This document shows positions 21,346-55,720 of a stretch of 64,000 nucleotides of DNA, in pieces. Each line of letters starts with the position of its first letter. The stretch's first letter is position 1. The notes below the pieces were generated by a model. That model saw only the letters and a program-made list of their open reading frames with translations. It made no database searches and was not told where the DNA came from. The stretch is from Tricholoma matsutake (Eukaryota > Basidiomycota > Agaricomycetes > Agaricales > Tricholomataceae): assembly GCA_026075535.2 (NCBI GenBank), contig AP026540.1, forward strand, positions 4,836,001 through 4,900,000. Reading direction: 5' to 3'. The translations under genes were made by a program, and so were the position numbers.

Positions 21346-21837
21346 TGTAATTTGGGCTCATTGGTGCACCTATAACTTCTTCCCCTTCCCTGTTGTGGGC
21401 AGAGGGGGCCTGTCTTATTAATCACCAAGGAGGCTCTTGAATGAAAAGCAAGTCGTAGTCATCTACGAGATCTGCTAGTAATGAGTCCATGTAACCCCAG
21501 TTTCTGTTTACATTTTGACTAAATACGCGTAGCTGAGGGGTAGATCTAAGTCTGTCTCTCATTTACGTTCAGCCACTGCGTCCTGCGGGATGGTAAGCAA
21601 GAGGGGAGCGAGAGTTACGTCTCGCACTCACCTCGTCATAGCGAGCTTTGATCCAATCACGGTCAAAGCGATGTTGCCAAAAATTGCACTGACGGTCATT
21701 GGATGCGTGGTTCTTCCGGCAGTTTATGCACCTAGCCGGGTGAGGACAGGCAACCCCCTCTGGGGTGGCTGGAATAGGAGGGTTCACCTTGGCATTTCCC
21801 TTGCAACAACTGGCCAGAGCCCGATGGTGCTCTTTCT
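21346..21837 (-). pseudogene. L2 ORF2 start and ORF1 end
   Basis: Minus-strand LINE junction region: ORF2 ATG at 21562-21560 with ORF1 stop 21565-21563 just upstream. The ORF2 part codes for the first ~70 residues of APE (FSQNVNRNWGYMDSLLADLV); the ORF1 part holds the last zinc knuckle (CINCRKNHASNDRQC). It ends in GATGGTGCTCTTTCT (21823-21837), the TSD of N4 that reappears at 60076. Confidence 0.88.
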
Positions 21838-22571
21838 TTTTTTTTTTTTTTTGGGTCAACAATTTATAACGCGGGGCTCGAATGCAGTCCGCGGAGCGGG
21901 GTACAAACTTGGGTACTACTCTATCTATGCGTTCCCCTCGCCCATCTCCCACCCAGGTCCCCGTTTTAGCCACTTTAGGCAGGCAGTGCCACAGACATTG
22001 GCCTCTCAGCCAGGAAAGGCAATAATCTGGAGGGGGAGCCCCCCCTCCTGAAGCTAGCCATTAGCTCGTCAGCTAGTGCGGAATGGTCCCCCAGCCACAT
22101 ATCCAACCGAAGTCAGATCAGGCACGGCCGTGTTAATTCACTGTAAATCCCCCCTTGCGGGAGGAATAACCGTCTGCATGTTCCCAGCCAACAAGGGTTG
22201 ACCACCCCAGGCGAATGAGGTGGACCATCACTGTGCCTGCGCACGAGTGATGAAAATGAGGTAGCTGGTTATTCACCTGGTTACTCACCGGAACTACCAT
22301 AGGCAGGGGGCCAAGGCCCCCCTCGAGCAAGTGCCAACACATGCACGCGCTCGATGACAACATCCCCCCCGCAGCGGGGAGAAGGTGTAGGGTAACGGCT
22401 AAGCATCATTGTCCCGATAACGGCCACCACTCCTGTGATGGGCATATATGTGGAGGGGTGGTTCCCCTTTTTTTAGTAGCGACGCTGCTGTGCTCGAGGA
22501 CCTCGAGGACAACAGCGACGTGCTGGGGACGAGGGTTCCCCAGATTGAGGCTCTGATTGAGCTGCTAGCAT

Positions 22572-23225
22572 CTTTTTTTTTTTTTTGGATCAGAATTTAT
22601 AACGCGGGGCTCGAATGCAGTCCGCGGAGCAAGATACAAACTTGGGTACTACTTTATCTATGCGTTCCCCTCGCCCATCTTCCACTCAGGTCCCCGTTTT
22701 AGCCACCTTTAGGCGGGCAGTTCCACAGACGTTGGCCTCTCAGCCAGGAAAGGCAATAATCTGGAGGGGGCGCCCCCCCCTCCCGAAGTTAGCCATTAGA
22801 TCGCCCCCTGGAGCAAACGGTCCCCCAGCCACATGTCCAACCGAGGCCAGACCAGGCGCAGCAGTGTTAATTCACCGTAAATCCCCCCTTGCGGGAGGAA
22901 TAACCATCTGCGTTTTTCCAGCCAATGAGGATTGACCACCCCAGACGAATGAGGTGGACCATCACCGTGTTGTGCACAAGTGACAGTAACAAGGCGGGTG
23001 GTTGTTCACCTGGTTATTCACCGTGACCGCCGTAAGTAGGGGGCTGAGACCCCCCTCGAGCAAATGCACTCGATGACATCATCCCCCCCGCAGTGGGGGG
23101 AAGGTATAGGGAAGCAACACAATGTCACCATCCCGATAGTGGCCACCAGTTACTTGGTGGCCGTGAACGTAGAGGGGGATAGCCCCCTGTACTAGTTGCG
23201 GTGCTGCTGTCCACGAGGACCTCGA
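22572..23225 (-). mobile_element. N5: second 3' end (subtype A 3' UTR and tail) inside N4
   Basis: Minus-strand 3' UTR of subtype A with T-run at 22572-22586 and CTGATCC terminus, joined upstream to the N4 subtype B body within the shared C-terminal coding region. The ~74 bp ending GCTGCTAGCATC occurs on both sides (about 22498-22571 and 23220-23292) with one difference. Either a 5'-truncated subtype A insertion with an unusually long duplication, or a full chimeric element joined tail-first to a truncated subtype B copy by template jumping. Confidence 0.7.
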
Positions 23226-24028
23226 GGACGACAGCGACGTGCTGGGGACGAGGGTTCCCCAGATTGAGGCTCTGATTGAGCTGCTAGCATCGCCACATAG
23301 GAAGCTCGAAAGGCTGCTGGAGACATGAGATCGAGAGGTGACGCGGCAGCTGCTAGTTCTGCTGACATCGTCTCAGACAATCGCCATGTGGCTGTGAATA
23401 ATTCCCAAGCCATCTGACACCATACGTTCCTCTCCGTAAGAGGGACAGCAGACACTTGGACGGTACCGACGAAAATCGTCATTGCCTCCAGTAGATGTAG
23501 AAAGCCATGAGAGGTGGCTGTTATCTCCACCCTCTCATCTCTCGACAACGGAGGCTCATCCTCCACCAACTCTGGGATGGCGGATGAACCCGGTGAAGTG
23601 GGGAGGGGCAGCACAGATTGCTCCTGCTGCCCCTCTGGATAAAGGAGCTCGGCAATGCCGAGCTCCCAATTGTTGTTGGCCTCGAGCCCAAGCTCGAGAG
23701 CCAGATTACTCATATCGTTGGCCACCTGCTGTGACCACAAGACGTGGTTTATAGTCTCCTGCAAGGCTAGCTCGGTGAGACCTGGGATGAATTCGACGTC
23801 TCCGCCAATGGCAGAGTCGTCAACTTCTGATAGGTTGGAGGAGTCGTCCTCCGACCATAGATTGTGGAGCTGGTTGTCCACATCAGAGTCCCATCCACCC
23901 AAAGAGATGTGACCGAACTCTGGGAGATAGTCGTCGTTGAAGTCTGCGACGTCGAAATTGGAGTGTAAGAGGGGGTCACTGTGCGCCACCCAGTGTCGAA
24001 TTCGCGCTCTACGGTTTGCAGAGGGCAT
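23192..24028 (-). CDS. Short-element protein, subtype B (N4), unknown function
   Basis: 278 aa from ATG 24028 (MPSANRRARIRHWVAHSDPL). The N-terminal ~120 residues differ from subtype A but are also acidic (VADFNDDYLPEFGHISLGG, SEDDSSNLSEVDDS). From ELGIAELLYPE on it matches subtype A: hinge, IPELVEDEPPLSRDERVEI, helical core with ERNVWCQMAWELFTATWRL, and basic tail RGPRGQQHRN. The last ~20 codons come from N5-type sequence, so the frame is open only because the two subtypes agree there. No known domain recognised. Confidence 0.75.
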   Translation of the reverse strand: MPSANRRARIRHWVAHSDPLLHSNFDVADFNDDYLPEFGHISLGGWDSDVDNQLHNLWSEDDSSNLSEVDDSAIGGDVEFIPGLTELALQETINHVLWSQQVANDMSNLALELGLEANNNWELGIAELLYPEGQQEQSVLPLPTSPGSSAIPELVEDEPPLSRDERVEITATSHGFLHLLEAMTIFVGTVQVSAVPLTERNVWCQMAWELFTATWRLSETMSAELAAAASPLDLMSPAAFRASYVAMLAAQSEPQSGEPSSPARRCRPRGPRGQQHRN

Positions 24029-24391
24029 TGAGGATGATTTAGCAAAGTAGATGACAGTAGAAGTCAAGATACGTAGCGTGATAACGATAACAGACGGTCC
24101 CTTATCTCAATTCCGGATCCATCCGATATAGCCTCCAATCGCTCCGAGGGGACAGACAGGCTGCACATCCTGCTGTCGAGTGGGAGAAGATCGAACCTGG
24201 GTCATACCACCCCAAAGGAGTGAGCACCGGAGGTGAGAAGTTGGTGGTGAGTAGCGGCCACCAGACGCTTCTTGTCTTCCTACCGTGATGTGCACAGCCA
24301 CAAAAAATTTCCGTCGACACCGTTTTCAACCTTTGTAGCTCAATCTGTCCTCGATCTCAGCGATCCGGTACCACCAGCATCTTACCAACGC

Positions 24392-25599
24392 ATGTCAGAT
24401 TCGTACTCCAGAAGAGGGGGGAGATCGGGCGAGGCGATGGACGAGGGGAGACCTTCTAGATCCAGTATGCCCAGAACTCCTGGCGATGACCCAATTGATT
24501 CCCTGCGGCTCTCTTCGAGCCACAGATCCACACAGAACGCACCCTCAGTGGGCCCTCACAGGACCCAAAGAGGCTCTCCAACCCCCTCCCCCTACGGGGC
24601 AGGCATCGTCACTCCGCGAGCACAGCGATTCAGCGTGCCAGCGTTATCTTCCAGAGACGCGACTGCATCTCCTGCACCTCCGGCTACCCCTTCTACACCT
24701 GCTTCGTGGGCTGATGAAGTGGCTGATAACCTCTCCTCCCACGTCATTCAGGACATGGAGATGGCTAGCGACAACTGGAGTGGACCCCAGACCTTCGCCA
24801 AAGACCTGGGAGAGTATGCTGAAGGATTCTGAGTTGTTCTCAACAGGACAGGATCTAGACGACCAACTGCTGAGGATCGGCAGCTCATTGCAGAATGGCT
24901 GGGCTCGGTGCTGGTAGCAGCTGCCGAGGCTGGTATCGATCATGACTCAGGAAGCGCTACGCTCCAGGGAGCTATAGACAGAATGTCAGGGGGCAGTAAA
25001 CGACCTAGGTCGGGCACTGTCACCAACAATCCCAATGTGGACTACCTGGAGGGATGGGATGGGCACGTCTCTTCATCATGGGGTTGAGGACCACCTCCCC
25101 CCATGAACTGGTCCACCAGGCCTTCGGGCAGGGGGACCTTTGCTCAGGTTGCCCGCTTCCCGGGGGGGCGAGCACCTAACACATCCATGGATGGCCTGGT
25201 GCGTTTAGCCAAGGCCTTCCCTGAGCTCCCAACCAACAAGCTGGCTGACATACAGCAGCATGTCGGCCCATCTAAACTGAAGGCAGCAAAGCCCTCACCT
25301 ACTGTATACGGACCGTCGAGACGACAGGTCCTAGTCCACATTCGTCCCCCCCTCGGGGCGGAGACGAATCCTGCTGACTTCCTGGACCATGTCCAGACCA
25401 CTCTCGGACTGCACCACTCCAAACTGGTGGCCCAGTCTGCATCTATGCATGCTGGTAACTTATCAGTAGCTACAGACGTCGTTGCCTCCGAGGAGGACCT
25501 TCGTTGTTTGAAGGAGGCTGCCTACAAGGCGTTCCCTTTCGTGTTGCAAGTAGACGCAGCGCTACCCACATCCACATCATACCTCAAGCTGGTCGATGT
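24392..25599 (+). pseudogene. LINE L4 ORF1, N-terminal part
   Basis: Starts ATG 24392 (MSDSYSRRGGRSGEAMDEG). Nonsense TGA at 24830-24832 and 25085-25087, both at positions that are CGA in L8. An in-frame deletion removes the SARTRGPRG linker before 25085. The N-terminal low-complexity, acidic and helical regions and the PSRRQVLVHIRPPL block are readable. It stops at the chain insertion (TSD AGCTGGTCGATGT, 25587-25599) within KLVDV and resumes at 39460. Confidence 0.85.
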
Positions 25600-25605
25600 C
25601 GTCAA

Positions 25606-27464
25606 CGCTCCTTGACTTGTTACAACCACCATAAACAGTGGTAAACACTCCTGCTCGATGTTGGTAGCAACGTCGAGACTCCAATTTTGGTCCGATTTTC
25701 GATCGGATTTCACCATCACGAACGCTCTCGGCGTCTCCAGGCCTGCCCTGATTTGCTAAGAGATCCGTCCATCCGATCCCCGGGGATGCCCCGGTCATTG
25801 TTTTTGACAATGGCTGCTATTCGTCTCGTTCTCCTGGGCTTTGAGGATCCTGACTAGGTGAGTGGTGTCTATGAAAGAGTAGTCTAGGTCCCTATGGGGG
25901 CTTAGAGTGGGTGTGGGATGCCTGCTTCAACGCTCGCCCAAGTCGACGCACTCGTTTAGTTGGGGGAGGTCTGGCTCAGGGGGAGGGACATCGTTACTGG
26001 ACTGCTGGTCGTCTCTGGGGCTTCCAACCTCCATGCTATGTGAGTCACTACTACTAGGGACAAGCTACACTGACTACCTGTTGGAATACACCATCGCTAA
26101 AAGGGGCCGGGTGACGGTGCCCCCTGATAGCTAGGTCGATGCTCTGGTGGCCGCACTTCACCACCGACTCCTCACCTCCGATGCTCACTCCTCTGGGGTG
26201 TTATGACCCGGGTTCAATCTTCTCCCACCAGGCAACAGGATGCGCGGCCTGTTCGCCCCCTCGGAGCGTTTGGAGGCTGTATCGGGTGGACCTGGAACTG
26301 AGATAAGGGGCCATCTGTTATCGATCTTACGCTACGTACTTTGACCCCTATCATCATTTACCTGTGCTAACTCACTCTCAATGCCCAAATGGCTGAACAG
26401 AGACCAAACCACACGCTGGGGCCTTCACGACCCCACCTTGATTACGGGTGACATCGTTGATGATGGTGCCCAAGACTACGACACCCAGCTCTCACAGAAC
26501 GAACTGGAGGTAGCAGCTGCCCTAGGCAGTTTGAGATTTGTGGGCCGGGGAGGACCTCCCCGACCCTGACGACTATGTGGACTCTCTTGCTAGGCAGGAG
26601 GCCCTCGCTTACACTGCACACTGCGTATTTCGATCACTAGCATCATATACCAGTACTAACTTGCTCCTGATGCCCAAGTGGACAACCAGAGACGATCGTT
26701 CCAATGATCCTATGCCTCCGGCAGCTGTTCCAGCTTCCTGTGTGGCGATGCCAACAGCTCTAGCAGAGCTCCAATCTGGGGAACCCTCGTTCCCAGTACA
26801 GTGCCGTCATCATCACAGATGGCCGTGCTGCTACTTGTGTGGGGCATCCTGCTCCACACCCATCACCGCCAGTCCGCTGGCTGCTGTCGGGTTGGTGACA
26901 AATGTCGCTACCCTTTACGTTCTCCCCGCTGCGGGGGGGAAATTGCTATCGAGTGCATGTGCTGGCAGTGCATTTGCTCGAGGGGGGCTTTGGCCCCCTG
27001 CTTACGGCGGTTCCGGTGAATAACCAGGTGAACAACCAGCTGCCACATTACTGTTACTCGTGCATGACACGGTGATGGTCCACCTCGTTCATCTGGGGTG
27101 GTCAATCCTTGTTGGCTGGGAGTATGCGGACGGTTATTCCTCCCGCAAGGGGGGATTTACGGTGAATTGACACTGCTGCGCCTGATCTGACTTTGGTTGG
27201 ATATGTGGCCGGGGGACCGCTTCGCACCAGCTGACGATCTAATGGCTAGCTTCGGGAGGGGGTCTCCCCCTCCAGATTATTGCCTTTCCTGGCTGAGAGG
27301 CCAACGTCTGTGGCACTGGCCGCCTAAAGTGGCTAAAACGAGGACCTGGGTAGGATATGGGCGAGGGGAAGCGTAGTTATAGTAGTACCCAAGTTTGTAT
27401 CCTGCTCCGGGGACTGCGATCGAGCCCCACATTATAAATTGTTGACCCAAAAAAAAAAAAAAAA
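25606..27464 (+). mobile_element. Short element N6, subtype C (internally deleted)
   Basis: 1.86 kb plus-strand copy with complete 5' end (after six extra bases CGTCAA), leader hairpin CATTGT/ACAATG at 25796-25812, rearranged ORF, GNRA hairpin at 27138-27155, and tail A16 at 27449-27464. Most of the ORF core is gone. The same rearrangement is seen in N8 and N12. Confidence 0.9.
26381..26830 (+). pseudogene. Short-element ORF, subtype C remnant (N6)
   Basis: Begins MPKWLNRDQTTRWGLHDPTL from ATG 26381 and follows subtype A for ~45 codons, then a one-base deletion near 26520 shifts the frame to a stop at 26567-26569. Downstream, sequence like the element's own leader and start (ATGCCCAAGTGGACAACC) recurs near 26670, and the helical core is missing; the C-terminal coding end follows (CAATCTGGGGAACCCTCG). 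No functional protein is expected. The same structure at N8 and N12 shows it was fixed before these copies spread. Confidence 0.75.
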
Positions 27465-28421
27465 GAAGTTATAGGCGCACCAATGAGCCCAAATTGGGGT
27501 ACTTTGGTGCACCCATCAGGAATTGATTCCCCTCCTCGCGTCGCTGTCTATTTTGCGAACAGCATCGCTAATCTAAGACCGGGTCTCAGACGGGATCTGA
27601 TCGACGATCGTGACATTCTTCTATTCTCACTGGGAATTGGGGAGGATGTCATGCTACTCGCTAACGTGTATTCGGACAGCCAACACTCGGCCATCACACT
27701 CTTATTTGAGAATGTCATGACGATCCCAGGCTTGCACTTCATGTGCGGCGACTTCAACGTGAGACATGCCTCCTGGGACCCCCAGGGGCCTGAGCACTCG
27801 ATCCATGCTGACCACTTAGTGGAAATGGCTGCAGCATTAGGCCTGACTAGAGCCCTACCAGTAGTGGAGGGCCCTACCCACTTTCCCCCTCAACAGGGCC
27901 TTCACCCTACGGTGATCGACCTGATGTTCGTACCTACAGATCTCAGATTTGTATTGTACTGCGAGATCGTACCTGAAGCCAGGGGGACGTCTGATCATGC
28001 CCCTCTGACGTTAGTGCTACCTGGCCCGGGATCTCTGGTCCCGGTCACCAAGTGGTCCATCAAAAAAGGATCCCAGGAGGAACCATCGTACCGGGATGCT
28101 GTCTCCTCGGCTTTAACTCCGTGGCTAAACTGGCACGGAAATACATCGGCAGAAATTGATGACGTTGTTTCGGCAATATCAATGATTTTAAACAAGGCAT
28201 GGGAAAACCATGCCAAGGAATCTCGCCTCGGCAAGTCATCCAAAGGTTGGTGGACAGACGAATGCAGTGGCTCCCTAGACCCGTACAGAGCCTCTCGTGA
28301 TGAGGAGGACTGGAAGCACTATAGAAAAGTCATGCGACACGCAAAGCGAGACTTTTTCGACAACCGTATCCAAGAAGTGGCTACGACGAATAGACGACCC
28401 TGGGACCTGATGGCCTGGACT
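27465..28421 (+). pseudogene. L5 ORF2, APE domain part
   Basis: Codes for ORF2 from about residue 62 (EVIGAPMSPNWGTLVHPSG) to residue ~380 (PWDLMAWT). It includes FMCGDFNVRHASWD, LHPTVIDLMFVPTDLRF and TSDHAPLTL, so most of the endonuclease is readable, but the N-terminal motifs with the catalytic Glu are missing because the copy is truncated. Interrupted by L7. Confidence 0.85.
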
Positions 28422-29259
28422 TTTTTTTTTTTTTTTTGGTTCAAAAGTTTATAACGCGGCGCCTGATCGCAGTCCGCGGTAGAGACATACAAACAGAGTA
28501 CACTATGCCCAGCCCAAGTCCTCCTCCTGCTGATCTTCACACCAACCACCTGGATAGCTGCAATGACCACTAAGGGGGCCCCCTTTATCGAGTAAACGGA
28601 CTTGCCAGTGGTGGCGTACTGACAACCCGAGCTTGACGATGCCGTGTTCCCTGAATCCCTACGGGTATGTGTGCAAGATTTAGGGGAGACTGCCGCCCCG
28701 ACGTGAGCCTCTCAGCTCAGAAAGGAAAGCGTATTCAGCATCGAAGCTGTAACGCGTAACCGACAGTGGATCTGGAAGCGCTCAGGCGCCTCCCCGAACC
28801 GGTACCTAGGTTCATGTCCCCCCTCCCTGACAGTCGCTCCTGAACACGGGTGGGCCCCCTTTATGAGGGTTAACGGACTCGTCTGGTGCCCAACGGCCAC
28901 CCCGACATACCGATAACACTAGCTAGAACCAGACGAGGGTCATACGCCCTGCGCGCACAACCTATCCTGGATCCCACGCAAGTGAGTTGAACGACCCAAG
29001 CGCAGGGTTATTGTCCATGAATTCGTGGAAGCCCTCGACGGAGTCAGGGCTAGCACGAGTTTCTTTGCGATCCACCTTGGGGCAGACGCGTAGTAAGTGG
29101 TCTCGAGTTTGTATCTCAGGACCAAGGCACCAACATTGGTATTCCCCGTCGAGGGATAAACGTTGACGATACTCCCCTATAGGAGCATGGCCAGTGATCA
29201 TACGAGTTGAACGGGAAGTCATCGTAGTGTTGTTTCCCATTACTTTCAGCCAAGGCCCA
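28422..29259 (-). mobile_element. LINE copy L7, strongly 5'-truncated
   Basis: Minus-strand 838-bp LINE 3' end: T-run at 28422-28437, complete 3' UTR, and the last ~90 codons of ORF2 (28962-29240; CWCLGPEIQTRDHLLRVC motif). TSD CTGATGGCCTGGACT at 28407-28421 and 29260-29274 (L5 ORF2). A textbook 5'-truncated TPRT product. Confidence 0.92.
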
Positions 29260-32005
29260 CTGATGGCCTGGACTCGTCAGCGTAACCTCCCATCGTACGA
29301 GGCAATCTCCTACCGGGGAGAACCTTGCAACGATCTGGAATCTCTGTGGGCAGCCCTAGACGGGTCCTATAACGCTGCTTCAGATCGAGTAGTCGATCTG
29401 AGCATTCTCGATGAACTTGACCCGGTGCCTGAAAGGGCCTGGATCTCGTTCTCTGTTACGGAAATGAAAGAAGCGTTAAACGTGTGTTCTTCCTGTTCCG
29501 CTCCAGGTCCCGATCATGTTACATGGTCGCACCTCAAGTACTGGTGTAGCAACCCAGAGGTGGCAGGGCTTATCACCCGCATCGCTGAGGCATGCATCAC
29601 TGTTGGCCATTGGCCAGCTCACTTTAAGGAATCCCTGTCGGTTATTATCCCAAAGCCAGGTAAACCTAACTACTCCACGCCAAAGTCGTTCAGGCCTATT
29701 GTGCTACTGAACACTCTGGGCAAGTTAGTCGAAAAAATGTTGTCCAGGCGACTTCAGTTCGACGGTATCGCACACGAGGCTTTCGAGCAAAACCAGTTCG
29801 GAGGCATCGCCCAGCGTTCCACTGAGGACGCAGGAATCTACCTCACCCACCTGGTTAGAGCAGGGTGGGCTAAAGGACTCAAAATGAGTGTTGTTGCCTT
29901 CAACATTGCTCAATTCTTCCCCTCCTTGAATCACCAGGTTCTGTTGGAGATTATTTCTCGGTCGGGGTTCCCTGCGCAAGTAGTGAACTTCTTCCGTTCA
30001 TACCTGGTCGGTCGTAAGACGACCTACAAATGGAACGCTTTCTCGTCTGGCTCCTTTGCAGCCGACGTGGGAGTGGGACAGGGCTCTGCCCTATCCCCAG
30101 TCTTATCGGCGCTATATCTGATGCCTATCATGAAGCTCTTCAGAAGAAGCAAAATCAGCAGAGATGTCGATCGCATGTCTTATGTGGACGATGGTACCCT
30201 CATCGCCCGCTCTCCACAGTTGGAGGATAACCTCCCCCTTCTGAAAAAAGCATATGGCTGGATCTTCCAGGCATTCACCTCCCTCGGTCTGGTCCTTGAA
30301 CATGACAAGTCCGAGATATTCCACTTCTCAAGGGCGAGGAGATTCACTCCCTTACCCATTGACCTTGGTTTCGCCCCCTACACGGGCAATACCCCCCTCA
30401 AACCCAAGGCTACCTGGAGGTACCTTGGATTTTTCTTCGACCGCAAACTCTCCTTTAAAGAGCATACGCAGTTCTACTCCACCAAAGCCCTTACCACTGC
30501 AAGGGCAATGGGAATGCTCGGCAACTCTGTCAGAGAGCTAACCCCTATGCAGAAACGCCTCCTGTACCGTTCGTGTGTCGTGCCTATCATGACATATGGA
30601 CTCAGACTTTGGCATTTTAAAGGCGCTCGCGTCAAAGGTGTCATCAAAACGCTGGCCCAGGTGCAGTCCATTGCTGCTCGCTGGATCCTTGGTGCCTTCA
30701 GAACCACCCCTATTGGTGGTCTGGAAAGTATTGCAGGACTGCTGCCCACGCAGCTGTTACTGGGTCGTCTAGTCAACAGAGGAGTGTTCAGAACCCCCCT
30801 ATTGGCTCCATCTCACCCTCTAAGAGCAATCTTAGGACCCAATCACGTAGGCACCACCCACTCTCATGAGCTAGGACTCTGGGGAGGGAACGTGCTTGAC
30901 ACACTCACCTTACAAGGTCCATCTGTCGCTTCGGCTGCAGCTTTGGCCCTCGTACCAGGCGATGAATTCGACACCTTTGGGGAAGAAAACGCACCTGGAA
31001 ACAGAGTGAAGGATTTATTCCCCACTCGCTTCTCCTCTCATCGCCTCACCTCTAAGGAGGATGGAGCGAGGAACTCTTACAGGAGGGACCTCGACAAGGC
31101 CTGGGCCTCCGCCCAGGTGGAGGATAACACTCTGGTCATTGCTGTGGATGCTTCGGTGCCCACTGATTCTAAATTCCAAGCTGTTGCCTGCACTCTTGTC
31201 TTCGGGCAGGGAGAGCAGGTCGATTGCGTTGTCTCAGCTTCTGGGAGGAGAACCCCCCCCGGAAGTCGAACTTTTCGCTCTCCAACTTGGCATCTCCGCT
31301 GCGTGCAGCAGGGGCTGCAAGAAGTTGGTTATCTTTTCGGATTCTACTATGGGCATTGAGTCCCTAATCGATCCAAAACCACGCTCTGGGCAAATCTTTG
31401 CCCTGGACGCCTGTCGCTCCCTTCGTCCTTGGCTAGCTGGGGACGAGGAGAGGAACGTGACATTCTGGCATGTCCCCTCGAAATTTGAGTGGAACATTCG
31501 CAAGATGGCTCACGATGTAGCTACATCTACCAAGATCTTTGTGGGCAGACACCTGCGGACGTCTTTAGACTACCTTAAAAACCAGGTCGAGAAGGCCGTT
31601 TGCAAGGATTGGCACACCCGGTTCTCAGATCTGGCGTACCGTGGTCGGCATTTCTACCAACTCAAAGGAGTGGGTGGAAAACCGGTATTACCCTCGACTC
31701 ACAAAGGTGGGCCCTGGCTGAAAGTTATGGGAAACAACACTACGTTGACTTCCCGTTCGACTCGTATGATTACTGGCCATGCTCCTATAGGGGAGTATCG
31801 TCAACATTTATCACTCGACGGGGAATACCAATGTTGGTGCCTTGGTCCTGAGATACAAACTCGAGACCACTTACTACGCGTCTGCCCTAAGGTGGATCGC
31901 AAAGAGACTCGTGCAAGCCCAGACTCCGTCGAAGGCTTCAACAAATTCATGGACAACAACCCGGCGCTCGGGTCGTTCAACTCACTCGCGTGGGATCCAG
32001 GATAG
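29260..32005 (+). pseudogene. L5 ORF2, RT and RNase H part, one frameshift
   Basis: Continues ORF2 after L7 to the natural stop at 32003-32005. RT motifs are kept: GQGSALSPVLSAL and YVDDGTL; the first Asp of motif A reads AFNIAQFF (Asn). A change in the C-run near 31251-31259 (GAACCCCCCCCGG) shifts the frame inside RNase H; the domain continues in another frame (ISAACSRGCKKLVIFSDST). Both changes would inactivate it. Confidence 0.85.
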
Positions 32006-32543
32006 GTTGTGCGCGCAGGGCGTATGACCCTCGTCTGGTTCTAGCTAGTGTTATCAGTATGTCGGGGTGGCCGTGGGGTGCCAGACAAGTCCGTTAACCC
32101 TCATAAAGGGGGCCCACCCGTGTTCAGGAGCGACTGTCAGGGAGGGGGGACATGAAACTAGGTACTGGTTCGGGGAGGCGCCTGAGCGCTTTTAGATCCA
32201 CTGTCGGTTGTGCGTTACGGCTTCAACGCTGACTACGCTTTCCTTTCCAAGCTGAGAGGCTCACGTCGGGGCGGCAGTTTCCCCTAAATCTTGCACTCAT
32301 ACCCGTAGGGATTCGGGGAACACAGTATCGTCAAGCTCGAGTTGTCGGTACGCCACCACTGGCAAGTCCGTTTACTCAATAAAGGGGGCCCCCTTAGTGG
32401 TCATTGCAGTTATCCAGGTGGTTGGTGCGAAGACTAGCAGGAGGAGGACTTGGGCTGGGCGTAGTGTATCCCATTTGTATGTCTCTACCGCGGACTGCGA
32501 TCGGGCGCCGCGTTATAAACTTTTGACCCAAAAAAAAAAAAAA

Positions 32544-32769
32544 GGTGAATCCTCCTGTCCCAGCTACCCCTGAAGGGGCAGCATGTCCTCACCCGGCTAG
32601 GTGCATAAACTGCCGGAAGAACCACGCATCCGACGATCGTCGGTGCAATTTTTGGCGACATCACTTTGACCGTGACTGGATCAAAGCTCGCTATGACGAG
32701 GTGAGTGCGAGACGCAACTCTCGTTCCCCTCCTGCTTACCATCCCACAGGACGCGGTGGCCGAACGTAA
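32544..32769 (+). pseudogene. L6 ORF1, last zinc knuckle
   Basis: About 75 codons: CPHPARCINCRKNHASDDRRC and the conserved FDRDWIKARYDEVSARRN stretch to TAA 32767-32769. The upstream ORF1 was never copied (5' truncation), so it lacks a start of its own. Confidence 0.85.
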
Positions 32770-35676
32770 ATGAGAGACAGACTTAGATCTACCCCTCAGC
32801 TACGCATATTTAGTCAAAATGTAAACAGAAACTGGGGTTACATGGACTCTTTACTGGCAGATTTCGTAGACGATTATGATTTGCTTTTCATCCAAGAGCC
32901 TCCTTGGCGATTAATAAGACACACCCCCTCTGCCCACAACAGGGTAGGGGAAGAAGTTATAGGCGCACCAATGAGCCCAAATTGGGGTACCTTAGTGCGC
33001 CCATTGGGAATTGACTCCCCTCCACGCGTTGCCATCTACTTTGCGAACAGCATCGCTAATCTAAGACCGGGTCTCAGACGAGATCTGATCGACGATCGTG
33101 ACATCCTTCTTTTCTCACTAGGAATAGGGGAGGACGTCATGCTACTTGCTAATGTTTACTCAGATAGCCAACACTCAGCCATCACGCTCTTATTTGAGAA
33201 CGTCATGATGATCCCACGTCTACACTTCATGTGTGGCGATTTTAACGTGAGGCACGCCTCCTGGGATCCCCAGGGGCCTGGACACTCTATCCATGCTGAC
33301 CACTTAGTGGAAACGGCTACGGCATTAGGCCTGACTAGAGCCCTACCAGTAGTGGAGGGCCCTACCCATTTCCCCCCACAACAGGGCCTTCACCCCACGG
33401 TGATCGACCTGATGTTCGTACCTACAGATCTTAGATTTGTACTGTACTGCGAGATTGTACCTGAAGCCAGGGGAACATCTGACCACGCCCCTCTGACGTT
33501 AGTACTACCTGGCCCGAGATCTTTGGTTCCGGTTCCCAAGTGGTCCATCAAAAAAGGATCCAAGGAGGAAGCATCATATCGGGATGCAGTCTCCTCCGCT
33601 TTAACTCCGTGGCTAGATTGGCACGGAGATACTTCAGCAGAAATTGATGATGTCATTTTGGCGATATCAATGATTTTAAACAAGGCATGGGAAAACCATG
33701 CCAAGGAATCTCGCCTCGGCAAGTCGTCCAAAGGCTGGTGGACAGACGAATGCAGTGGTGCTCTAGACGCTTACAGAGCTTCCCGTGATGAGGAGGACTG
33801 GAAGCACTACAGGAAAGTCATGCGACATGCAAAGCGTGACTTCTTCTATGACCGTATCCAAGAAGTGGCTACAATGAATAGACGACCCTGGGACCTAATG
33901 TCCTGGACTCGTCAACGCAACCTCCCGTCATATGAGGCGATCTCCTATTGGGGAGAACCTTGCAATGATCTGGACTCTCTTTGGGCTGCCCTTGATGGGT
34001 CCTATAACGCTGCCTCAGATCGAGTAGTCGATCTGAGCATTCTTGATGGACTTGATCCGGTGCCTGAAAGGGCCTGGATCTCGTTCTCCGTCACGGAAAT
34101 GAAAGAAGTGTTAAATGCATGTTCTTCCCATTCCGCTCCAGGTCCCGATCATGTCACTTGGTCGCACCTAAAACACTGGTGTAGCAACCTGGAAGTGGCA
34201 GGGCTCATCACCTGCATTGCTGAGGCGTGCATCACTGCTGGCCACTGGCCAGCTCACTTTAAGGAATCCCTGTCGGTCATCATCCCAAAACCAGGGAAAC
34301 CTAATTACTCTACCCCTAAGTCGTTCAGGCCCATCATGCTCCTGAACACTTTGGGCAAATTAGTCGAAAAGATGTTGTCTAGGCGACTTCAGTTCGACGG
34401 TGTCGCACACGAGGCCTTCGAGCAAAATCAGTTCGGAGGCGTCGCCCAGCATTCCACTGAGGATGCAGGTATTTACCTTACCCACCTGGTCAGAGCAGGA
34501 TGGGCCAAAGGGCTCAAAACGAGTGTTGTCGCCTTCGACATCACTCAGTTCTTCCCCTCCTTGAACCACCAGGTTCTATTGGAGATTATCTCTCAGTCGG
34601 GATTCCCTGCGCAAGTAGTGAATTTCTTCCGCTCATACTTGGTCGGTCGCAAGATGACCTACAAGTGGAACACTTTCTCATCTGGCTCCTTTGCAGCCGA
34701 TGTGGGAGTGGGGCAAGGCTCTGCCTTGTCCCCTGTCTTATCGGCGTTATACCTGACGCCCATTATGAAGCTCTTCAGAAGAAGCGAAATCGGCAGAGAT
34801 GTCGATCTCATGTCCTATGTGGACGATGGTACCCTCATCGCCCGCTCTCCACAGTTGGAGGATAACCTCCCCCTCCTTAAAAAAGCGTATGGCTGGATCT
34901 TCCAGGCATTCACCTCCCTCAGACTTGGCCTGGAACACGACAAATCCGAAGTATTTCACTTCTCAAGGGCAAGGAGATTCACTCCCTTACCCATCGATCT
35001 CGGCTTTGCCCCCTATTTGGGCAATACCCCCCTCAAGCCCAAGGTTACCTGGAGGTACCTCGGATTTTTCTTTGATCGCAAACTCTCCTTCAAGGAGCAT
35101 ACGCGATTCTACTCCACCAAAGCCCTTACCACTGCAAGGGCAATGGGAATGCTCGGCAATTCTGTCAGAGGGCTAACCCCTATGCAGAAACGCCTCTTGT
35201 ACCATTCGTGTGTTGTACCTATCATGACATATGGGCTCAGACTCTGGCACTTTAAAGGCGCTCACGTCAAAGGTGTCATTAAAACGCTGGCCCAAGTGCA
35301 GTCCATCGCTGCCCATTGGATCCTCGGTGCCTTCAGAACCACCCCTATCGGGGGTCTGGAAAGTATCGCAGGACTGCTGCCTATGCAGCTGTTACTACGT
35401 CGTCTAGTCGACAGGGGAGTACTCCGAACCCCCCTATTGGCCCCATCACACCCCCTAAGAGCGATCTTAGGGCCCAATCATGTTGGCACTACCCACTCTC
35501 ATGAGTTAGGACTCTGGGGAGGAAACATGCTCGATACACTCACCCTACAGGGCCCCTCTGTCGCTTCGGCTGCAGCTTTGGCCCTTGTACCAGGCGATGA
35601 GTTCAACCCCTTTGGGGAAGAAAACACACCTGGAAACAGAGTGAAGGATCTTTTCCCCACTCGCTTTTCCTCTCAT
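32770..35676 (+). pseudogene. L6 ORF2, first part (APE, RT), interrupted by N7
   Basis: Begins MRDRLRSTPQLRIFSQNVNR at ATG 32770, right after the ORF1 TAA. Open for ~969 codons with IQEPPWRL, FMCGDFNVRHASWD, SDHAPLTL, RT motifs AFDITQFFPSLNH, GQGSALSPVLSAL and YVDDGTLI. The frame breaks at N7 in the SSHRLTSKEDG region; the rest is at 37940-38917. Joining the two parts without N7 would give one open frame by eye, so N7 is the main lesion. Confidence 0.88.
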
Positions 35677-37939
35677 TTTTTTTTTTTTTTGTTTTTTGGG
35701 TCAACGATTTATAACGCGGGGCTCGATCGCAGTCCGCGGAGCAGGGTACAAACTAGGGTACTACTATATCTATGCGTTCCCCTCGCCCATCTCCCACCCA
35801 GGTCCCCGTTTTAGCCACTTTAGGTGGGCAGTGCCACAGACGTTGGCCTCTCAGCCAGGAAAGGCAATAATCCGGAGGGGAAGCCTCCCCCTCCCGAAGC
35901 TAGCCATTAGGTCACCCACTGGTACCAACCGGTCCCCCGGCCACATATCCAACCGAAGTCAGATCAGGCGCAGTGGTGTCAATTCACCGTAAATCCCCCC
36001 TTGCGGGAGGAATAACCGATAGCCTACTTCCAGCCAGCGAGGAATGACCACCCCAGACGAATGGGGTGGACCATCACCGTGTTTGCACACGAGTGACAGA
36101 GATGTGGTAGCTGGTTGTTCACCTGGTTATTCACCAGAACTACCGTAGGCAGGGGGGCCAAGGCCCCCCTTCAAGCAAATGCCGACATGTGCATGCACTC
36201 GATGACAACGTCCCCCCCACAGCGGGGGGAAGGTGGAGGGAAGCGACAAGATGTCACTATCCCATTATCGGCCACCAATTATTTGGTGGGCGTGGTTGTG
36301 GAGGGGTGTTCCCCTATTGGTTGCGGCGCGGCTGTCTCCGAGGACCTCGAGGATGACGGCGTCGTGATGAGGACGAGGGTTCCTCATGATGGAGGTCTGC
36401 ATGAGCTGCCTGCCTAGCCGCGTAGGAAGCCCTGAAGGCTGCCGGTGACGTGAGATCGAGAGGCAATCCGGCAGCTGCTAGTTCTGCCGACATTGGCTCG
36501 GACAATCGCCAGGTGGTTGTGAATAGTTCCCATGCCATCTGGCGCCATGCATTCCTCTCTATGAGCGGAACGGCGGATACTCGGACGGTACCGACAAAAA
36601 TCGTCATAGCCTCCAGTAAGTGTAGAAAGCCATGAGAGGTGGACGTTATGTCCACCCTCTCATCTCTCGACAGCGGAGGCTCATCCTCCACCAACTCTGG
36701 GATGGCGGATGAACCCGGTGATGTGGGGAGGGGCGGCGCAGATTGCTCCTGCTGCCCCTCCGGATAGAGGAGCTTGGCGATGCCGAGCTCTTGATTGTTA
36801 TTGGCCTCGAGCCCAAGCTCGAGAGCCAGATCATGCACCTCATCGGCTATCACTTGTGATGCCAAGAAGCGGTTTATCGTCTCCTGCGAGGCTAGCTCGG
36901 TGAGACCCAGGATGAATTCGACGTCTCCGCCGGTGGCAGAGCCGTCATCGTCATCTGGCAGGTCGGAGGAGTCATCCTCCGCCCAAAGATTGTGGAACTG
37001 GTTAGCCACATCAGAGTCCCATCCGCTCAGGGAGACATGTCCGAACTCTGGGAGGTAGTTGTCGTCGAAGTCTGCGAAGTCGGCGTTTGTGTATAGGAGG
37101 GGGTCGCCATGAGCTGCCTGGTGTCGAGTTCGCACTCTACGGTTTGCAGAGGGCATTGAGGATGATTTAGCACAAGTAGATGACGGTAGAAGTCAAGATA
37201 CGTAGCGTGATAACGATAACAGACGGTCCCTTATCTCGATTCCGGGTCCACCCGACACAGCCTCCAGACGCTCCAAGGGGGCAGGCAGGCCGCAAATCCT
37301 GCTGCCGATTGGGAGAGACGATTGAACCCGGTTCCAAACACCTCAAGGGTGTGAGTGCCGGAGGTGAAGAGTCGGTGGTGAGTAGCGGCCACCAGAGCGT
37401 CGACCTAGCCACCAGGGGGCACCATCGCCCGGCCCCTTTTAACGATGGTGTATTCCGATAGGTAGTCAGTGTAGCAGGTCTCTAGATGTAGAAACTCACA
37501 CAGCATGGAGGTAGGAAGCCTCCCAGACGACCCACAATCCAGTGAATATGTCCCTCCTCCTGAACCAGACCTCCCCCAGCTAAACAAATGTGACGACTTG
37601 GGCGAGCATTGAAGTAGGCATCCCACACCCACTCTAAGCCCCCTTAGGGGCCCAGACTACTCTTTCATTGCCAGCACTCACCTAACCAGGATCCTCGAAG
37701 CCCAGGAGAACGAGATGAATAGCAGACACTGTCAAAAACAGTGACCGGGGCATCCACAGAGATCGGATGGACGGATCCCTTAGCAAATCAGGCCAGGCCT
37801 GGAGACACCGAGAGTGTTCGTGATGGCAAAATCCGATCGAAAATCGGACCAAAATTGGAGTCTCGACATTGCTACCAACATCAAGCAGGAGTGTTTACCA
37901 CTGTTTATGGTGGTTGTAACAAGTCAAGGAGCGGCGTTG
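35677..37939 (-). mobile_element. Short element N7, subtype B, full length
   Basis: Minus-strand copy with tail T14-G-T6 at 35677-35697, TTGACCC-type terminus, intact ORF, and leader hairpin CACTGT/ACAGTG at 37727-37743. TSD CGCTTTTCCTCTCAT at 35662-35676 and 37940-37954. About seven extra bases lie at the 5' junction. Confidence 0.92.
36314..37156 (-). CDS. Short-element protein, subtype B (N7), unknown function, intact
   Basis: 280 aa from ATG 37156 (MPSANRRVRTRHQAAHGDPL). Basic first 15 residues, then acidic region (DDSSDLPDDDDGSATGGD), ELGIAKLLYPEGQQEQ, proline/serine hinge, IPELVEDEPPLSRDERVDI, helical core ERNAWRQMAWELFTTTWRL, and basic tail RGPRRQPRRNQ. It is the most complete subtype B protein in the window; N11 is its close sister with a nonsense codon. 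Function unknown; the charge layout (acidic then basic end) is shared by all subtypes. Confidence 0.8.
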   Translation of the reverse strand: MPSANRRVRTRHQAAHGDPLLYTNADFADFDDNYLPEFGHVSLSGWDSDVANQFHNLWAEDDSSDLPDDDDGSATGGDVEFILGLTELASQETINRFLASQVIADEVHDLALELGLEANNNQELGIAKLLYPEGQQEQSAPPLPTSPGSSAIPELVEDEPPLSRDERVDITSTSHGFLHLLEAMTIFVGTVRVSAVPLIERNAWRQMAWELFTTTWRLSEPMSAELAAAGLPLDLTSPAAFRASYAARQAAHADLHHEEPSSSSRRRHPRGPRRQPRRNQ

Positions 37940-38917
37940 CGCTTTTCCTCTCATTGCCTCACCTCTAAGGAGGATGGAGCGAGGAATTCTTACAGGAGCG
38001 ACCTCGATAAAGCCTGGGCGTCGGCCCAAGTGGAGGATGACACTCTTGTTGTTGCAGTGGACGCTTCGGTGCCCACAGATTCTAAATTCCAGGCTGTCGC
38101 CTGCGCTCTTGTCTTCGGACAGGGAGAGCAGGTTGATCGCGTTGTCTCAGCTTTGGGGAGAAGAACCCCCCCAGAAGTCGAACTCTTCGCTCTCCAACTG
38201 GGCGTCTCGGCTGCTTGCAGCAGAGGATGCAAAAAGTTGGTGATCTTCTCGAATTCTACTATGGGCATTGAGTCCCTAATTGATCCAAAACCACGTTCTG
38301 GGCAAATCTTTGCCCTGGACGCTTGTCGCTCCCTTCGCCCCTGGCTAGCTGGGGACAAGGAGAGGAACGTTACATTCTGGCATGTCTCCTCGAAATTCGA
38401 GTGGAATGTTCACAAGATGGCTCACGATGTAGCTACATCTACCAAGATCTCCGTGGGCAGACACCTGCGGACGTCTTTAGATTACCTTAAAAATCAGGTT
38501 GAAAAGGCCATTTGTAAGGATTGGCACACCCGGTTCTCAGATCCGGCGTATCATGGTCGGCACTTCTACCAACTCAAAGGAGTAGGTGGAAAACTGGTAT
38601 TACCCTCGACTCACAAAGGTGGGCCTTGGCTGAAAGTTATGGGAAACAACACTTCGTTGACTTCCCGTTCAACTCGTATGATCACTGGCCATGCTCCTAT
38701 AGGGGAGTATCGTCAACGTCTATCCCTCGACGGGGAATACCAATGCTGGTGCCTTGGTCCCAACATACAAACTCGAGACCATCTACTACGCGTTTGCCCC
38801 GAGGTAGATCGCAAAGAGACTCGTGCAAGCCCCGACACCATCGAAGGCTTCCACGAATTTATGGACAACAACCCAGCATTAGGGTCGTTCAACTCACTTG
38901 CGTGGGATCCAGGATAG
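37940..38917 (+). pseudogene. L6 ORF2, RNase H part
   Basis: ORF2 resumes after N7 with the KEDGARNSYRSDLDKAW region and RNase H: VVAVDASVPTDSKFQ, EVELFALQLGV, VIFSNSTMGIES (third acidic residue changed to Asn), KMAHDVATS, then CWCLGPNIQTRDHLLRVC, to TAG 38915-38917. The Asp-to-Asn change suggests RNase H is inactive. Confidence 0.85.
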
Positions 38918-39459
38918 GTTGTGCGCGCAGGGCGTATGACCCCCGTCTGGTTCTAGCTAGTGTTATTGGTATGTCGGGGTGGCTGTAGGGCACCAGACGA
39001 GTCTGTTAACCCTCATAAAGGGGGCCCACCCGTGTTCAGGAGCGACTGTCAGGGAGGGGGGACACAAAACTAGGTACTGGTTCGGGGAGGCGCCTAAGCG
39101 CTTTCAGATCCACTGTCGGTTATGCGTTACGGCCTCAATGCTGGCTACACTTTCCTTTCCGAGCTGAGAGGCTCACATCGGGGCAGCAGTATCCCCTAAA
39201 TCTTGCACTCATACCCGTAGGGATTCAGGGAACACGGCATCGTCAAGTCTGGGTTGTCGGTACGCCGCCACCGGCAAGTCTGTTTACTCGATAAAGGGGG
39301 CCCCCTTAGTGGTCATCGCAGCTATCCAGGTGGTTGGTGTGAAGATCAGCAGGAGGAGGACTTGGGCTGGGCATAGTGTACTCTGTGTGTATGTCTCTAC
39401 CGCGGACTGCCTTCGGGCGTCGTGTTATAAATTTTTGACCCAAAAAAAAAAAAAAAAAA

Positions 39460-40058
39460 GCTGGTCGACATGCCATTCATCGCTAACGACAAGGCGTTAA
39501 CGCCTGATGTTGTCATCACACACTTGGGAAAGTCCAGAATTTCGGACCTCACAGTGCTTCAAGTCCCCCACCGTGTAGTACGCGATTCGAAGATGTCGGA
39601 TACGTGCACGAGCCAAGGCTCTTATCGGTCGAGGCATTCAATTTGGATGCTACGTTGCTTATGTTAGGGCTGCCAGGGCGAACCCTGGATTGCCCATCTG
39701 CCAACAATGCTGGAAGTGGGGCCACCCCACCCCAGCATGCAGAGCTCCACAGACCAAATGTCCGATCTGTGCAGGCCCACACCATAAGGAGCACCATCGT
39801 GCTCTCGCAGGGTGTTGTAAGGGAAACGCCAAGGTGAACCCTCCTGTCCCAGCTACCCCAGAGGGGGCAGCCTGTCCTCACCCGGCTAGGTGCATTAACT
39901 GCCGGAAAAATCATGCATCCGACGATCATCGGTGCAACTTCTGGCGACATCGCTTTGACCGAGATTGGATCAAAGCGCGCTATGACGAGGTGAGTGCGAG
40001 ATGTAACTCTCGCTCCCCTCCTGCTTACCATCCCGCAGGACGCGGTGGCCGAACGTAA
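39460..40058 (+). pseudogene. L4 ORF1, C-terminal part
   Basis: Resumes at KLVDMPFIANDKALTPDVV after the chain. A deletion of ~35 bp after MSDTCT (near 39606) shifts the frame. From 39690 on the zinc knuckles are readable in frame: CQQCWKWGHPTPAC, a CPICAGPH motif and CINCRKNHASDDHRC, ending TAA 40056-40058 directly before the ORF2 ATG. Confidence 0.85.
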
Positions 40059-40455
40059 ATGAGAGACAGACTTAGATCTACCCCTCAGCTACGTGTATTT
40101 AGTCAGAATGTAAATCGAAATTGGGGTTACATGGACTCGTTACTGGCGGATTTCGTAGATGACTACAACCTGCTTTTCATTCAAGAGCCTCCCTGGCGAT
40201 TAATAAGACACGCCCCCTCTGCCCACAACAGGGAGGGGGAAGAAGTTATAGGTGCACCAATGAGCCCAAATTGGGGTACTTTGGTGTGCCCATCGGGAAT
40301 TGATTCCCCTCCTCGCATTGCTGTCTATTTTGCGAACAGCATCGCTAATCTAAGACCGGGTCTCAGACGAGATCTGATCAATGATCATGACATCCTCTTG
40401 TTCTCACTGGGAATAGGGGAGGATGTCATGCTATTCGCTAACGTATACTCGGACA
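40059..40455 (+). pseudogene. L4 ORF2, N-terminal part (APE)
   Basis: MRDRLRSTPQLRVFSQNVNR from ATG 40059 to about residue 132 (FANVYSD), where N8 is inserted. Contains FSQNVNRNWG and FIQEPPWRL. Continues at 44526. Confidence 0.85.
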
Positions 40456-40906
40456 TCGCTCCTTGACTTGTTACAACCACCATAAACAGTGGTAAACACC
40501 TCTGCTCAACGTTGCCAGTGACGTCGACACTTCAATTTACGTCCGATTTTTGATCGGATTTCACCATCACGAACGCTCTCGGCGTCTCCAGACCTGCCCT
40601 GATTTGCTAAGAGATCCGTCCATCCGATCCCCGGGGATGCCCCGGTCATTGTTTTTGACAATGGCTGCTATTCGTCTCGTTCCCCTGTGCTTCGAGGATC
40701 CTGGCTAGGTGAGTGGTGTCTATGAAAGAGTAGTCTAGGTCCCTATGGGGGCTTAGAGTGGGTGTGGGATGCCTGCTTCAATGCTCGCCCAAGTCGACGC
40801 ACTCGCTTAGTTGGGGGAGGTCTGGCTCAGGGGGAGGGACATTGTTACTGGACTGCTGGTCGTCTCTGGGGCTTCCAACCTCCATGCTATGTGAGTCACT
40901 ACTACT

Positions 40907-43093
40907 TTTTTTTTTTTTTGGGTCAAAAATTTATAACGCGGGGCTCGAACGCAGTCCGCGGAGCGGGGTACAAACTTGGGTACTACTCTATCTACGCGTT
41001 CCCCTCGCCCATCTCCCACCCAGGTCCCCGTTTTAGCCACTTTAGGTGGGCAGTGCCACAGACGTTGGCCTCTCAGCCAGGAAAGGCAATAATCTGGAGG
41101 GGGAGCCCCCCCTCCCGAAGCTAGCCATTAGGTCGTCAGCTAGTGTGGAACGGTCCCCCAGCCACATATCCAACCGAAGTCAGATCAGGCGCGGCCGTGT
41201 TAATTCACTGTAAATCCCCCCTTGCGGGAGGAATAACCGTCTGCATGTTCCCAGCCAACAAGGGTTGACCACCCCAGGCGAATGAGGTGGACCATCACTG
41301 TGCCTGCGCACGAGTGACAAAAATGAGGTAGCTGGTTATTCACCTGGTTACTCACCGGAACTACTGTAGGCAGGGGGCCGAGGCCCCCCTCGAGCAAGTG
41401 CCAACACAAGCACGCACTCGATGACAACATCCCCCCCGCAGCGGGGAGAAGGTGTAGGGTAATGGCTAAGCGTCATTGTCCCGATAATGGCCACCACTCC
41501 TGTGATGGGCGTATATGTGGAGGGGTGGTACCCCTTTTTAGTAGTGACGCTGCTGTGCTCGAGGACCTCGAGGACGACGGCGACGTGCTGGGGACGAGGG
41601 TTCCCCAGATTGAGGCTCTGATTGAGCTGCTAGCATCGCCACATAGGAAGCTCGAAAGGCTGCCGGAGACGTGAGATCGAGAGGTGATGCGGCAGCTCCT
41701 AGTTCTGCCGACATCGTCTCAGACAATCACCATGTGGCTGTGAATAATTCCCAAGCCATCTGACGCCATACGTTCCTCTCCATAAGAGGGACGGCAGACA
41801 CTCGGACAGTACCGACGAAAATCGTTATTGCCTCCAGTAGATGTAGAAAGCCATGAGAGGTGGCTGTTAATTCCGCCCTCTCATCTCTCGACAACGGAGG
41901 CTCATCCTCCACCAACTCTGGGATGGCGGATGAACCCGGTGAAGTGGGGAGGGGCGGCACAGATTGCTCCTGCTGCCCCTCTGGATAAAGGAGCTCGGCA
42001 TTGCCAAGCTCCCGATTGTTGTTGGCCTCGAGCCCAAGCTTGAGAGCCAGATTACTTGTATCGTTGGCCACCTGCTGTGACCACAAGACACGGTTTATAG
42101 TCTCCTGCGAGGCTAGCTCGGGGAGACCTGGGATGAATTTGACGTCTCCGCCGATGGCAGAGTCGTCAACTTCTGATAGGTCGGAGGAGTCGTCCTCCGA
42201 CCATAGATTGTGGAGCTGGTTGTCCACATCAGAGTCCCATCCACCCAAAGAGATGTGACCGAACTCTGGGAGATAGTCATCGTCGAAGTCTGCGATGTCG
42301 AAATTGGAGCGGAAGAGGGGGTCGCTGTGCACCACCCGGTGCCGAATTCGCACTCTACGGTTCGCAGAGGGCATTGAGGATGATTTAGCAAAGTAGATGA
42401 CGGTAAAGGTCAAGATATGTAGCGTGATAACGATAACAGACGGTCCCTTATCTCAATTCCGGATCCACCTGATATAGCCTCCAATCGCTCTGAGGGGACA
42501 GACAGGCCGCACATCCTGCTGTCGAGTGGGAGAAGATTGAACCTGGGTCATACCACCCCAAAGGAGTGAGCACCGGAGGTGAGAAGTTGGTGTTGAGTAG
42601 CGGCCACCAGAGCATCGACCTAGCCATCAGGGGGCACCATCACCCGGCCCCTTTTAACGATGGTGGAGGCTGGAAGCCCCCCAGGCGACCAGCAATCCAG
42701 TGAGAGTGTCCCTCCTCCTAAGCCAGACCTCCCCCAACTAAGCGAATGCGACGACATGGGCGAGCGTTGAAGTAGGCATCCCACACCCACTCTGAGACCC
42801 CAGAGGGACCCAGACTACTCTTTCATTGACAACACTCACCTAGCCAGGATCCTTGAAGCCCAGGAGAATGAGACAAATAGCAGACACTGTCAGAAACAGT
42901 GCCCAAGGCATCCACAGAGATCGGATGGACGGATCCCTTAGCACATCAGGCTATGCCTGGAGACACCGAGAGCGTTCGTGATGGTGAAATCTGATCGAAA
43001 ATCGGACAAAAATTGAAGTGTCGACGTCGCGTGCAACGTTGAGCAGAGGTGTTTACCACTATTCATGGTGGTTGTAACAAGTCAAGGAGCGTC
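40907..43093 (-). mobile_element. Short element N9, subtype B, full length, inside N8
   Basis: Minus-strand copy with T13 tail at 40907-40919 and TTTTTGACCC terminus; 5' end near 43093. TSD GAGTCACTACTACT at 40893-40906 and 43094-43107 (N8 leader). Leader hairpin CACTGT/ACAGTG at 42885-42901. This sits five layers below the host: L2, N4, L4, N8, N9. Confidence 0.92.
41538..42374 (-). pseudogene. Short-element protein, subtype B (N9), one nonsense codon
   Basis: 279 codons from ATG 42374 (MPSANRRVRIRHRVVHSDPL) to 41538, closed once at 41729-41727, where W-TGA-LSE replaces WRLSE (CGA to TGA, about codon 216). Otherwise the same layout as N4 and N7: acidic N-terminus, ELGNAELLYPEGQQEQ, IPELVEDEPPLSRDERAEL, helical core, basic tail. 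The nonsense codon falls in the core and would remove the basic tail. Confidence 0.78.
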
Positions 43094-55705: not shown

Positions 55706-55720
55706 GAAGTCAGCAGGATT

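Follow-up and report, generated by a model that had tools for sequence, protein, structure and literature searches.

The reverse transcriptase of the R2 element is able in vitro to jump end to end between templates: having reached the 5' end of one template, it continues at the 3' end of another RNA. Among the genomic chimeras presented by Gogvadze et al. (2007) are a tripartite WEIRD-MgSINE-MGL element with 14-bp repeats in the rice blast fungus Magnaporthe grisea, two B2-U6-L1 chimeras from mouse, flanked by perfect direct repeats of 15 and 16 bp, as well as 33 two-part elements (PMC2104539). The features given there for template-switch chimeras are a full-length 5' part, 5'-truncated 3' parts, the same orientation, direct joins and short repeats at the outer borders, and the M. 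grisea switch sites are described as having a GCC*A/U motif and no microhomology (PMC2104539). In mammals, Law and Burns (2026) describe chimeras of the long interspersed nuclear element (LINE) L1 with U6, U3, 5S and others, timed by multi-species alignments, and for the U6 chimeras these authors leave both RNA ligation and template switching open (PMC13174262). Here we analyse a chain of three retroelements, N6, L5 and L6, in a 64,000-nucleotide stretch of DNA (the window; C3:4836001-4900000) of the Tricholoma matsutake genome (161,040,721 bases, 13 contigs), which a preliminary description had read as the product of a single target-primed reverse transcription with template jumping. It is likely that the chain results from one insertion event, however its parts were joined. 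Joining by template jumping, with one target-primed insertion of a three-part complementary DNA (cDNA), is our tentative explanation, and the jump step itself would stand at close to an even chance.

The chain agrees with template-switch chimeras of the MINE type in its 5' part, truncation, joins, orientation and outer-only repeats. As in the M. grisea element, as far as the published account describes it, copies of three transcripts lie in one orientation with a full-length 5' part and two 5'-truncated 3' parts, and a non-autonomous element is combined with a LINE within one target site duplication (TSD; 14 bp there). In contrast to that account, both joints in T. matsutake read AA|G, N6 and L5 retain poly(A) runs of 16 and 14, LINE copies make up two of the three parts, and the insertion lies in a LINE in a putative centromere. 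The mouse B2-U6-L1 chimeras have three parts likewise, but those described combine a short interspersed element and a small RNA with L1 and have no second LINE copy. The mammalian L1 chimeras share the foreign 5' part and the 5'-truncated LINE, with U6 and U3 mostly in sense, but in the cases described small RNAs are joined to one LINE (PMC13174262). Tripartite chimeras are already known from the rice blast fungus and mouse, and the suggestion that a three-RNA product spanning two families would be notable as new did not hold (PMC2104539). A brief literature search found no published report of the N6-L5-L6 locus. The jumps proposed here resemble those of R2 in that a further RNA would be entered at its 3' end, but they differ in that the LINE units stop internally.

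Structure of the chain

The region is built of two element families, here called L and N, and nested copies of these make up nearly all of the DNA together with one long terminal repeat element. L is a LINE of 6.44 kb, and positions given as ref count along its reference copy L3 (window 7054-13495), in which open reading frame (ORF) 1 of 504 aa stops at ref 1641 and ORF2 begins at ref 2050. The L3 ORF2 has endonuclease, reverse transcriptase and RNase H domains (PF14529, PF03372 just below the cut-off, PF00078 and PF13456), and the named relatives of its protein are from mushrooms, e.g. Candolleomyces and Coprinellus. N elements are non-autonomous, with lengths of about 1.85 or 2.24 kb, and their final ~50 bases are similar to the L 3' end. 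According to the published genome description, each T. matsutake chromosome has one GC-rich, LINE-rich region, possibly the centromere, and chromosome 1 has two (PMC10211490); among the first 100 places listed for N 5' ends, two clusters are on C1. Nested LINE clusters, one per chromosome and probably centromeric, are also described for Zepp in Coccomyxa (PMC3446292).

N6, L5 and L6 are all on the plus strand, head to tail and directly joined, inside the full-length LINE L4 (Table 1), as had been described. The start of N6 agrees within 2 nt with the N 5' end common to 20 fetched relatives, which upholds the claim that N6 keeps its 5' end. The left TSD and N6 are separated by six extra bases, and short additions of this kind are frequent where N copies begin. 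Both LINE units had been said to start abruptly after the poly(A) of the unit before, inside ORF2 and ORF1. For L5 this is so, while for L6 the placement in ORF1 is only approximate, as it starts between the ORF1 stop and ORF2.

The outer flanks had been called a 13-bp duplication of L4, and the two copies of the duplication, AGCTGGTCGAYRT, are identical at 11 of 13 positions (25587-25599 versus 39459-39471). Both mismatches are of the CpG type, and an original CG that decayed to TG on one side and to CA on the other would give them. Since nearly every local target is L or N, an L-to-L match alone means little. However, L4 has its own 13-bp TSD (GTAGCGGCCACCA, 24251-24263 and 59522-59534) that encloses the whole chain, and it is read from ref 2 to 1424 before the chain and from ref 1411/1413 onward after it; therefore a single element holds the chain at a single site, and the outer TSD does not depend on a chance match between L copies. 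At the inner joints (27464/27465 and 32543/32544), a search of 9 kb before each last piece, allowing at most one mismatch in 10, found no TSD, in line with the preliminary description: its matches were one-mismatch only, in unrelated places, and none adjoined an element start. Likewise, neither L5 nor L6 has a left arm in the window element map or the TSD comparison. In the window, L3 and N1 (7037-15643) share the target TCCTCCTTGGAGA, which is present three times, and the visible TSD reported between these two elements is thus confirmed.

One insertion is favoured by the single outer TSD, the lack of inner TSDs, the one orientation, the complete 5'-most unit with 5'-truncated units after it and the complete L4 around them. 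Because the left arms are absent and their exact loss is improbable, a composite insertion is preferred. Ordinary insertions in C3:4816001-4928000, tallied by eye among those with TSDs or matching arms and leaving out unresolved or odd ones, are full length in 20 of 22 cases and truncated in two, compared with truncation of both downstream units of the chain (2/2 versus 2/22; Fisher P 0.022). The cDNA of the chain would be about 10.7 kb when the later nested insertions are left out, with its site in L4 at ref ~1411. These nested insertions, both on the minus strand, have 15-bp TSDs of their own, CTGATGGCCTGGACT (28407-28421/29260-29274) for the LINE in L5 and CGCTTTTCCTCTCAT (35662-35676/37940-37954) for the N in L6.

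Table 1. Features of the N6-L5-L6 chain, its host element and chain 2 (window positions)
Feature	Position	Strand	Remarks
L4, full-length LINE hosting the chain	24264..59521	+	pieces 24266-25599, 39460-40453, 44525-48208, 59189-59521
Left outer TSD copy	25587..25599	+	L4 ref ~1411-1424; AGCTGGTCGATGT
Extra bases CGTCAA between left TSD and N6	25600..25605	+	
N6, short-type N, full length	25606..27464	+	A16 tail
L5, LINE 5'-truncated at ref 2233 (in ORF2)	27465..32543	+	A14 tail
Younger 5'-truncated LINE in L5	28422..29259	-	ref ~5621-6442; own 15-bp TSD
L6, LINE 5'-truncated at ref 1823/1824	32544..39459	+	A18 tail
Younger full-length N in L6	35677..37939	-	own 15-bp TSD
Right outer TSD copy	39459..39471	+	AGCTGGTCGACAT; L4 resumes at ref 1411/1413
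Chain 2, right TSD copy, 14 bp	21823..21836	-	GAAAGAGCACCATC
Chain 2, truncated N, A-type	21837..22572	-	A16 tail; starts at Nq position 1512
Chain 2, Nq, full-length mosaic N	22573..60073	-	A14 tail; interrupted by L4
Chain 2, left TSD copy, 14 bp	60076..60089	-	

Origin of the chain

In the template-jumping explanation, a LINE reverse transcriptase would have been primed on the poly(A) of an L6 RNA. After copying as far as about ref 1824 it would have switched to the poly(A) end of an L5 RNA, followed this to about ref 2233, and then switched again, to an N RNA, which it copied from its poly(A) end through to the N 5' end. Each move may have been aided by two LINE A's pairing with poly(A). 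In its complete form, with one ~10.7-kb cDNA from three separate polyadenylated RNAs of two families and two microhomology-guided jumps from internal positions to poly(A) ends in a putative centromere, this explanation is possible, and we place it somewhat below an even chance. If this complete form is true, template jumping would be one way in which these LINE arrays grow. With its length and its bounding TSD, N6-L5-L6 is a candidate case of double template use in a fungal LINE, and the host genome offers over a thousand intact N 5' ends for comparison.

The form of the joints bears on this. Control joints were 67 tail/flank joints from the window and the fetched loci, with seven redundant loci dropped; one was unmapped and two were short of context, which leaves 64, three of the chain and 61 others. 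In these 61, an A stands before the visible joint (in the reference) in 53, and AA|G is found in 12. The insertion-site motif is weak: A occupies -1, half of the sites also have A at -2, 55% have G at +1, and the mean rank is 0.667. Only 5.2% of random LINE positions are preceded by AA. Two AA joints are therefore unlikely for random truncation, and either microhomology-guided jumps or former insertion sites would explain them.

Several observations weigh against jumping. Both inner joints read AA|G in the window's intact copies, a form common at ordinary insertion sites, which pulls toward read-through of a nested donor. By the site-motif score, weak as the motif is, the L6 joint exceeds more than 98% and the L5 joint more than about 71% of the background A-preceded positions. 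An independent N with an ordinary 13-bp TSD is inserted at LINE ref 2233 at C3:4901887, 38 kb away and in the opposite orientation, which shows that this position does serve as a target. Two or three further places align across the N6/L5 joint at ref 2233 (among the best 40 of 1,634), and five cover the greater part of the L6 joint, though one of the five is several bases off (among the best 40 of 1,690). The M. grisea motif GCC*A/U is matched by L6 (GCC|AA) and not by L5. Chain 2, described below, looks the same as N6-L5-L6 and yet is no simple jump, and among the resolvable insertions no two-part chimera has been proven. Finally, the parts differ in their nearest relatives (N6 98% over the full length, L6 96%, L5 94%) and in their end branches (N6 0.020, L5 0.072, L6 0.086). 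The shared 2233 site was considered as proof and set aside, as there are 101 AA|G positions and many insertions use such sites.

The read-through explanation, which we regard as unlikely, places an N in sense in a LINE at 2233 and this LINE in sense in another at 1823. Transcription of this donor, starting at the N 5' end, would pass two poly(A) sites and leave the left arms behind, and the RNA would be retrotransposed once with no jump, so that the one TSD, the full N 5' end and the missing left arms are all accounted for together. It agrees with the AA|G joints and with the N at exactly LINE 2233 elsewhere, and sense nesting is common (30 of the 65 L/N joints). It also demands the passing of two sites and a very long RNA, and no fitting donor locus was found in this assembly by exact joint strings or by 188- and 191-base joint queries, of whose 1,690 and 1,634 candidates the best 40 were scored. 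The L5/L6 joint string occurs only once in the assembly by exact search, and among the best 40 of 1,690 candidates no other locus matched over the full joint. The sole well-matched N/LINE-2233 locus, C3:4901887, is too different, with an N 94% and a LINE arm 91% like those of the chain, and is therefore no recent duplicate. Template jumping is preferred over read-through mainly because no donor was found and because such chimeras are documented in a fungus. Of the original interpretation, the single event has been retained (an outer TSD, no inner ones, no detectable age difference between L5 and L6 and no second locus found with their joint), while the choice of a jump over read-through is not established.

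Several ordinary events, in which L6 entered L4, L5 entered L6 and N6 entered L5 and the left arms were lost later, or a variant with re-insertion plus recombination between N copies, seem distinctly improbable. Target deletions and mismatched arms do occur (19128-21340; C3:4810650-4813369), three of the 20 full-length N relatives have no TSD, and in-register junctions are known here from chain 2. Yet the loss of the arms would have to stop exactly at the end of the L4 TSD, which we estimate at about 1% or less, and a test for a mosaic N6 was not significant (P 0.11, with low power). An in-register shortcut alone cannot make N6-L5-L6, because N6 and L4 share no homology at their border. If the units had instead entered poly(A) tails one by one, with all-A target duplications that would be invisible, the same outer TSD and no visible inner one would be left, and there are two full-length LINE copies that begin only 4-5 nt downstream of an N-type tail. 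As ordinary insertions are mostly full length, tail insertion should also leave full-length N copies right after tails, but in an exact-pattern genome search none of the N 5' ends found stood directly on a tail although 1,020 exact N 5' ends are present, and the tail-border case L3/N1 left a visible TSD; we consider this explanation very improbable. Zepp in Chlorella reportedly inserts into tails, and in this it would differ from N here, for which no such insertion was found in that search. An assembly error in the repeat array is the least probable of all. Nested repeats almost throughout the region could favour one, but L5 and L6 are about 6% and 4% off their nearest found relatives, the nested TSDs of L4 can be paired up consistently across 35 kb, and the assembly is described as telomere to telomere (PMC10211490).

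Age and divergence of the parts

A comparison of divergence had been proposed as a way of checking the single event. The end branch of N6 (0.020) compares with a median of 0.011 among its 20 relatives. Over ORF2 ref 4216-5919 in 23 LINE copies, the median ratio of nonsynonymous to synonymous differences (pN/pS) to other copies is 0.08 for L5, 0.10 for L6 and 0.06 for L3, and no stop is found in the 23 copies over these 1.7 kb. Median synonymous differences to other copies over the same stretch are 0.28-0.32 for L5, L6 and L3. As most differences between L copies are synonymous, insertions are not dated by identity to the nearest relative, and nearest-relative ages were set aside as a test. It seems from these patterns that LINE divergence would largely predate the insertions; several old LINE lineages appear to have been kept active under selection, and the copies appear to be fairly recent insertions.

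Private nonsynonymous changes in ORF2 number 23/2803 (0.0082) in L5, 19/2954 (0.0064) in L6 and 22/2928 (0.0075) in L4, and the median rate of 53 copies or pieces is 0.0044. Stops are found in seven of these 53, with two in L4 and none in L5 and L6, and the L5 ORF2 carries one 1-base insertion. There is no detectable age difference between L5 and L6 by private nonsynonymous changes. The private rates of L5 and L6 are alike, and nearest relatives and end branches differ among the three units. The age measures neither separate N6, L5 and L6 nor prove them equal in age.

Chain 2 and other look-alikes

Chain 2 lies on the minus strand around L4. Two N types were compared, A (L061 and N-40906) and B (N-16613, N1, N-48654 and L035). 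In Nq, the full-length N of chain 2, nearly every diagnostic site up to 1566 is of type A, and from 1590 on nearly every one is of type B. The truncated N has the A form at almost all of its sites, and the two copies are identical over 1512-1572. On the simplest reading of these sequences, chain 2 would be a single A-type N into which, at 1512, a B-type 3' fragment was inserted with its left end in register, and the in-register joint probably comes from pairing of the cDNA with the homologous target. This reading entails a duplication of 55-78 bp, which exceeds the TSD length usual in this region; a template switch from one N RNA to another is the less simple alternative. As chain 2 shows the signature of a tail, a truncated unit and no inner TSD but holds a mosaic N, this signature is not sufficient for a jump, contrary to the proposal that other chimeras could be recognised by it. 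It can probably arise by in-register nesting, which matters for chimera calls elsewhere.

Three apparent chains (L020, L025 and L011) turned out to be ordinary nesting once more flank was read (L031, L032 and L033, with LINE-coordinate overlaps of 15, 7 and 9 bp). L035/L009 was likewise set aside as a chain and is better explained as an ordinary full-length LINE in an N, because CACTGCTG directly precedes a LINE 5' end at C13:4811910.

Other insertions

The pattern of a tail followed by an N start was searched with exact strings of a tail, a gap of up to 30 and the N start, by which tails of other make-up are missed. Six places were found genome-wide, all with 12-18 nt of other sequence between, and the five besides L3/N1 are probably re-insertions like it. 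At C7:5746708-5746750 and C12:9386299-9386339, only 4-5 nt, too few for a TSD-sized spacer, separate an N-type tail from the 5' end of a full-length LINE, and from their sequence these two loci are possible end-to-end jump products.

In the 20 N relatives, TSDs were flagged by script in 15 and by eye in two more. The other three, all full length (L045, L046 and L049), have no TSD and unmatched flanks; an outer TSD was not found 7.7-9 kb downstream, and they are not proven chimeras. No TSD was found at an L-N joint near C3:4900847. At window 19128-21340, a full-length N with a tail patterned with AAAAAAT repeats stands where LINE ref 2262-3702 is missing; it was rejected as a third chain and is better explained as an insertion with a 1.44-kb target deletion. 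A 5'-truncated LINE at C3:4810650-4813369 (L067) has arms at ref 2670 and 5778, implying a 3.1-kb target deletion.

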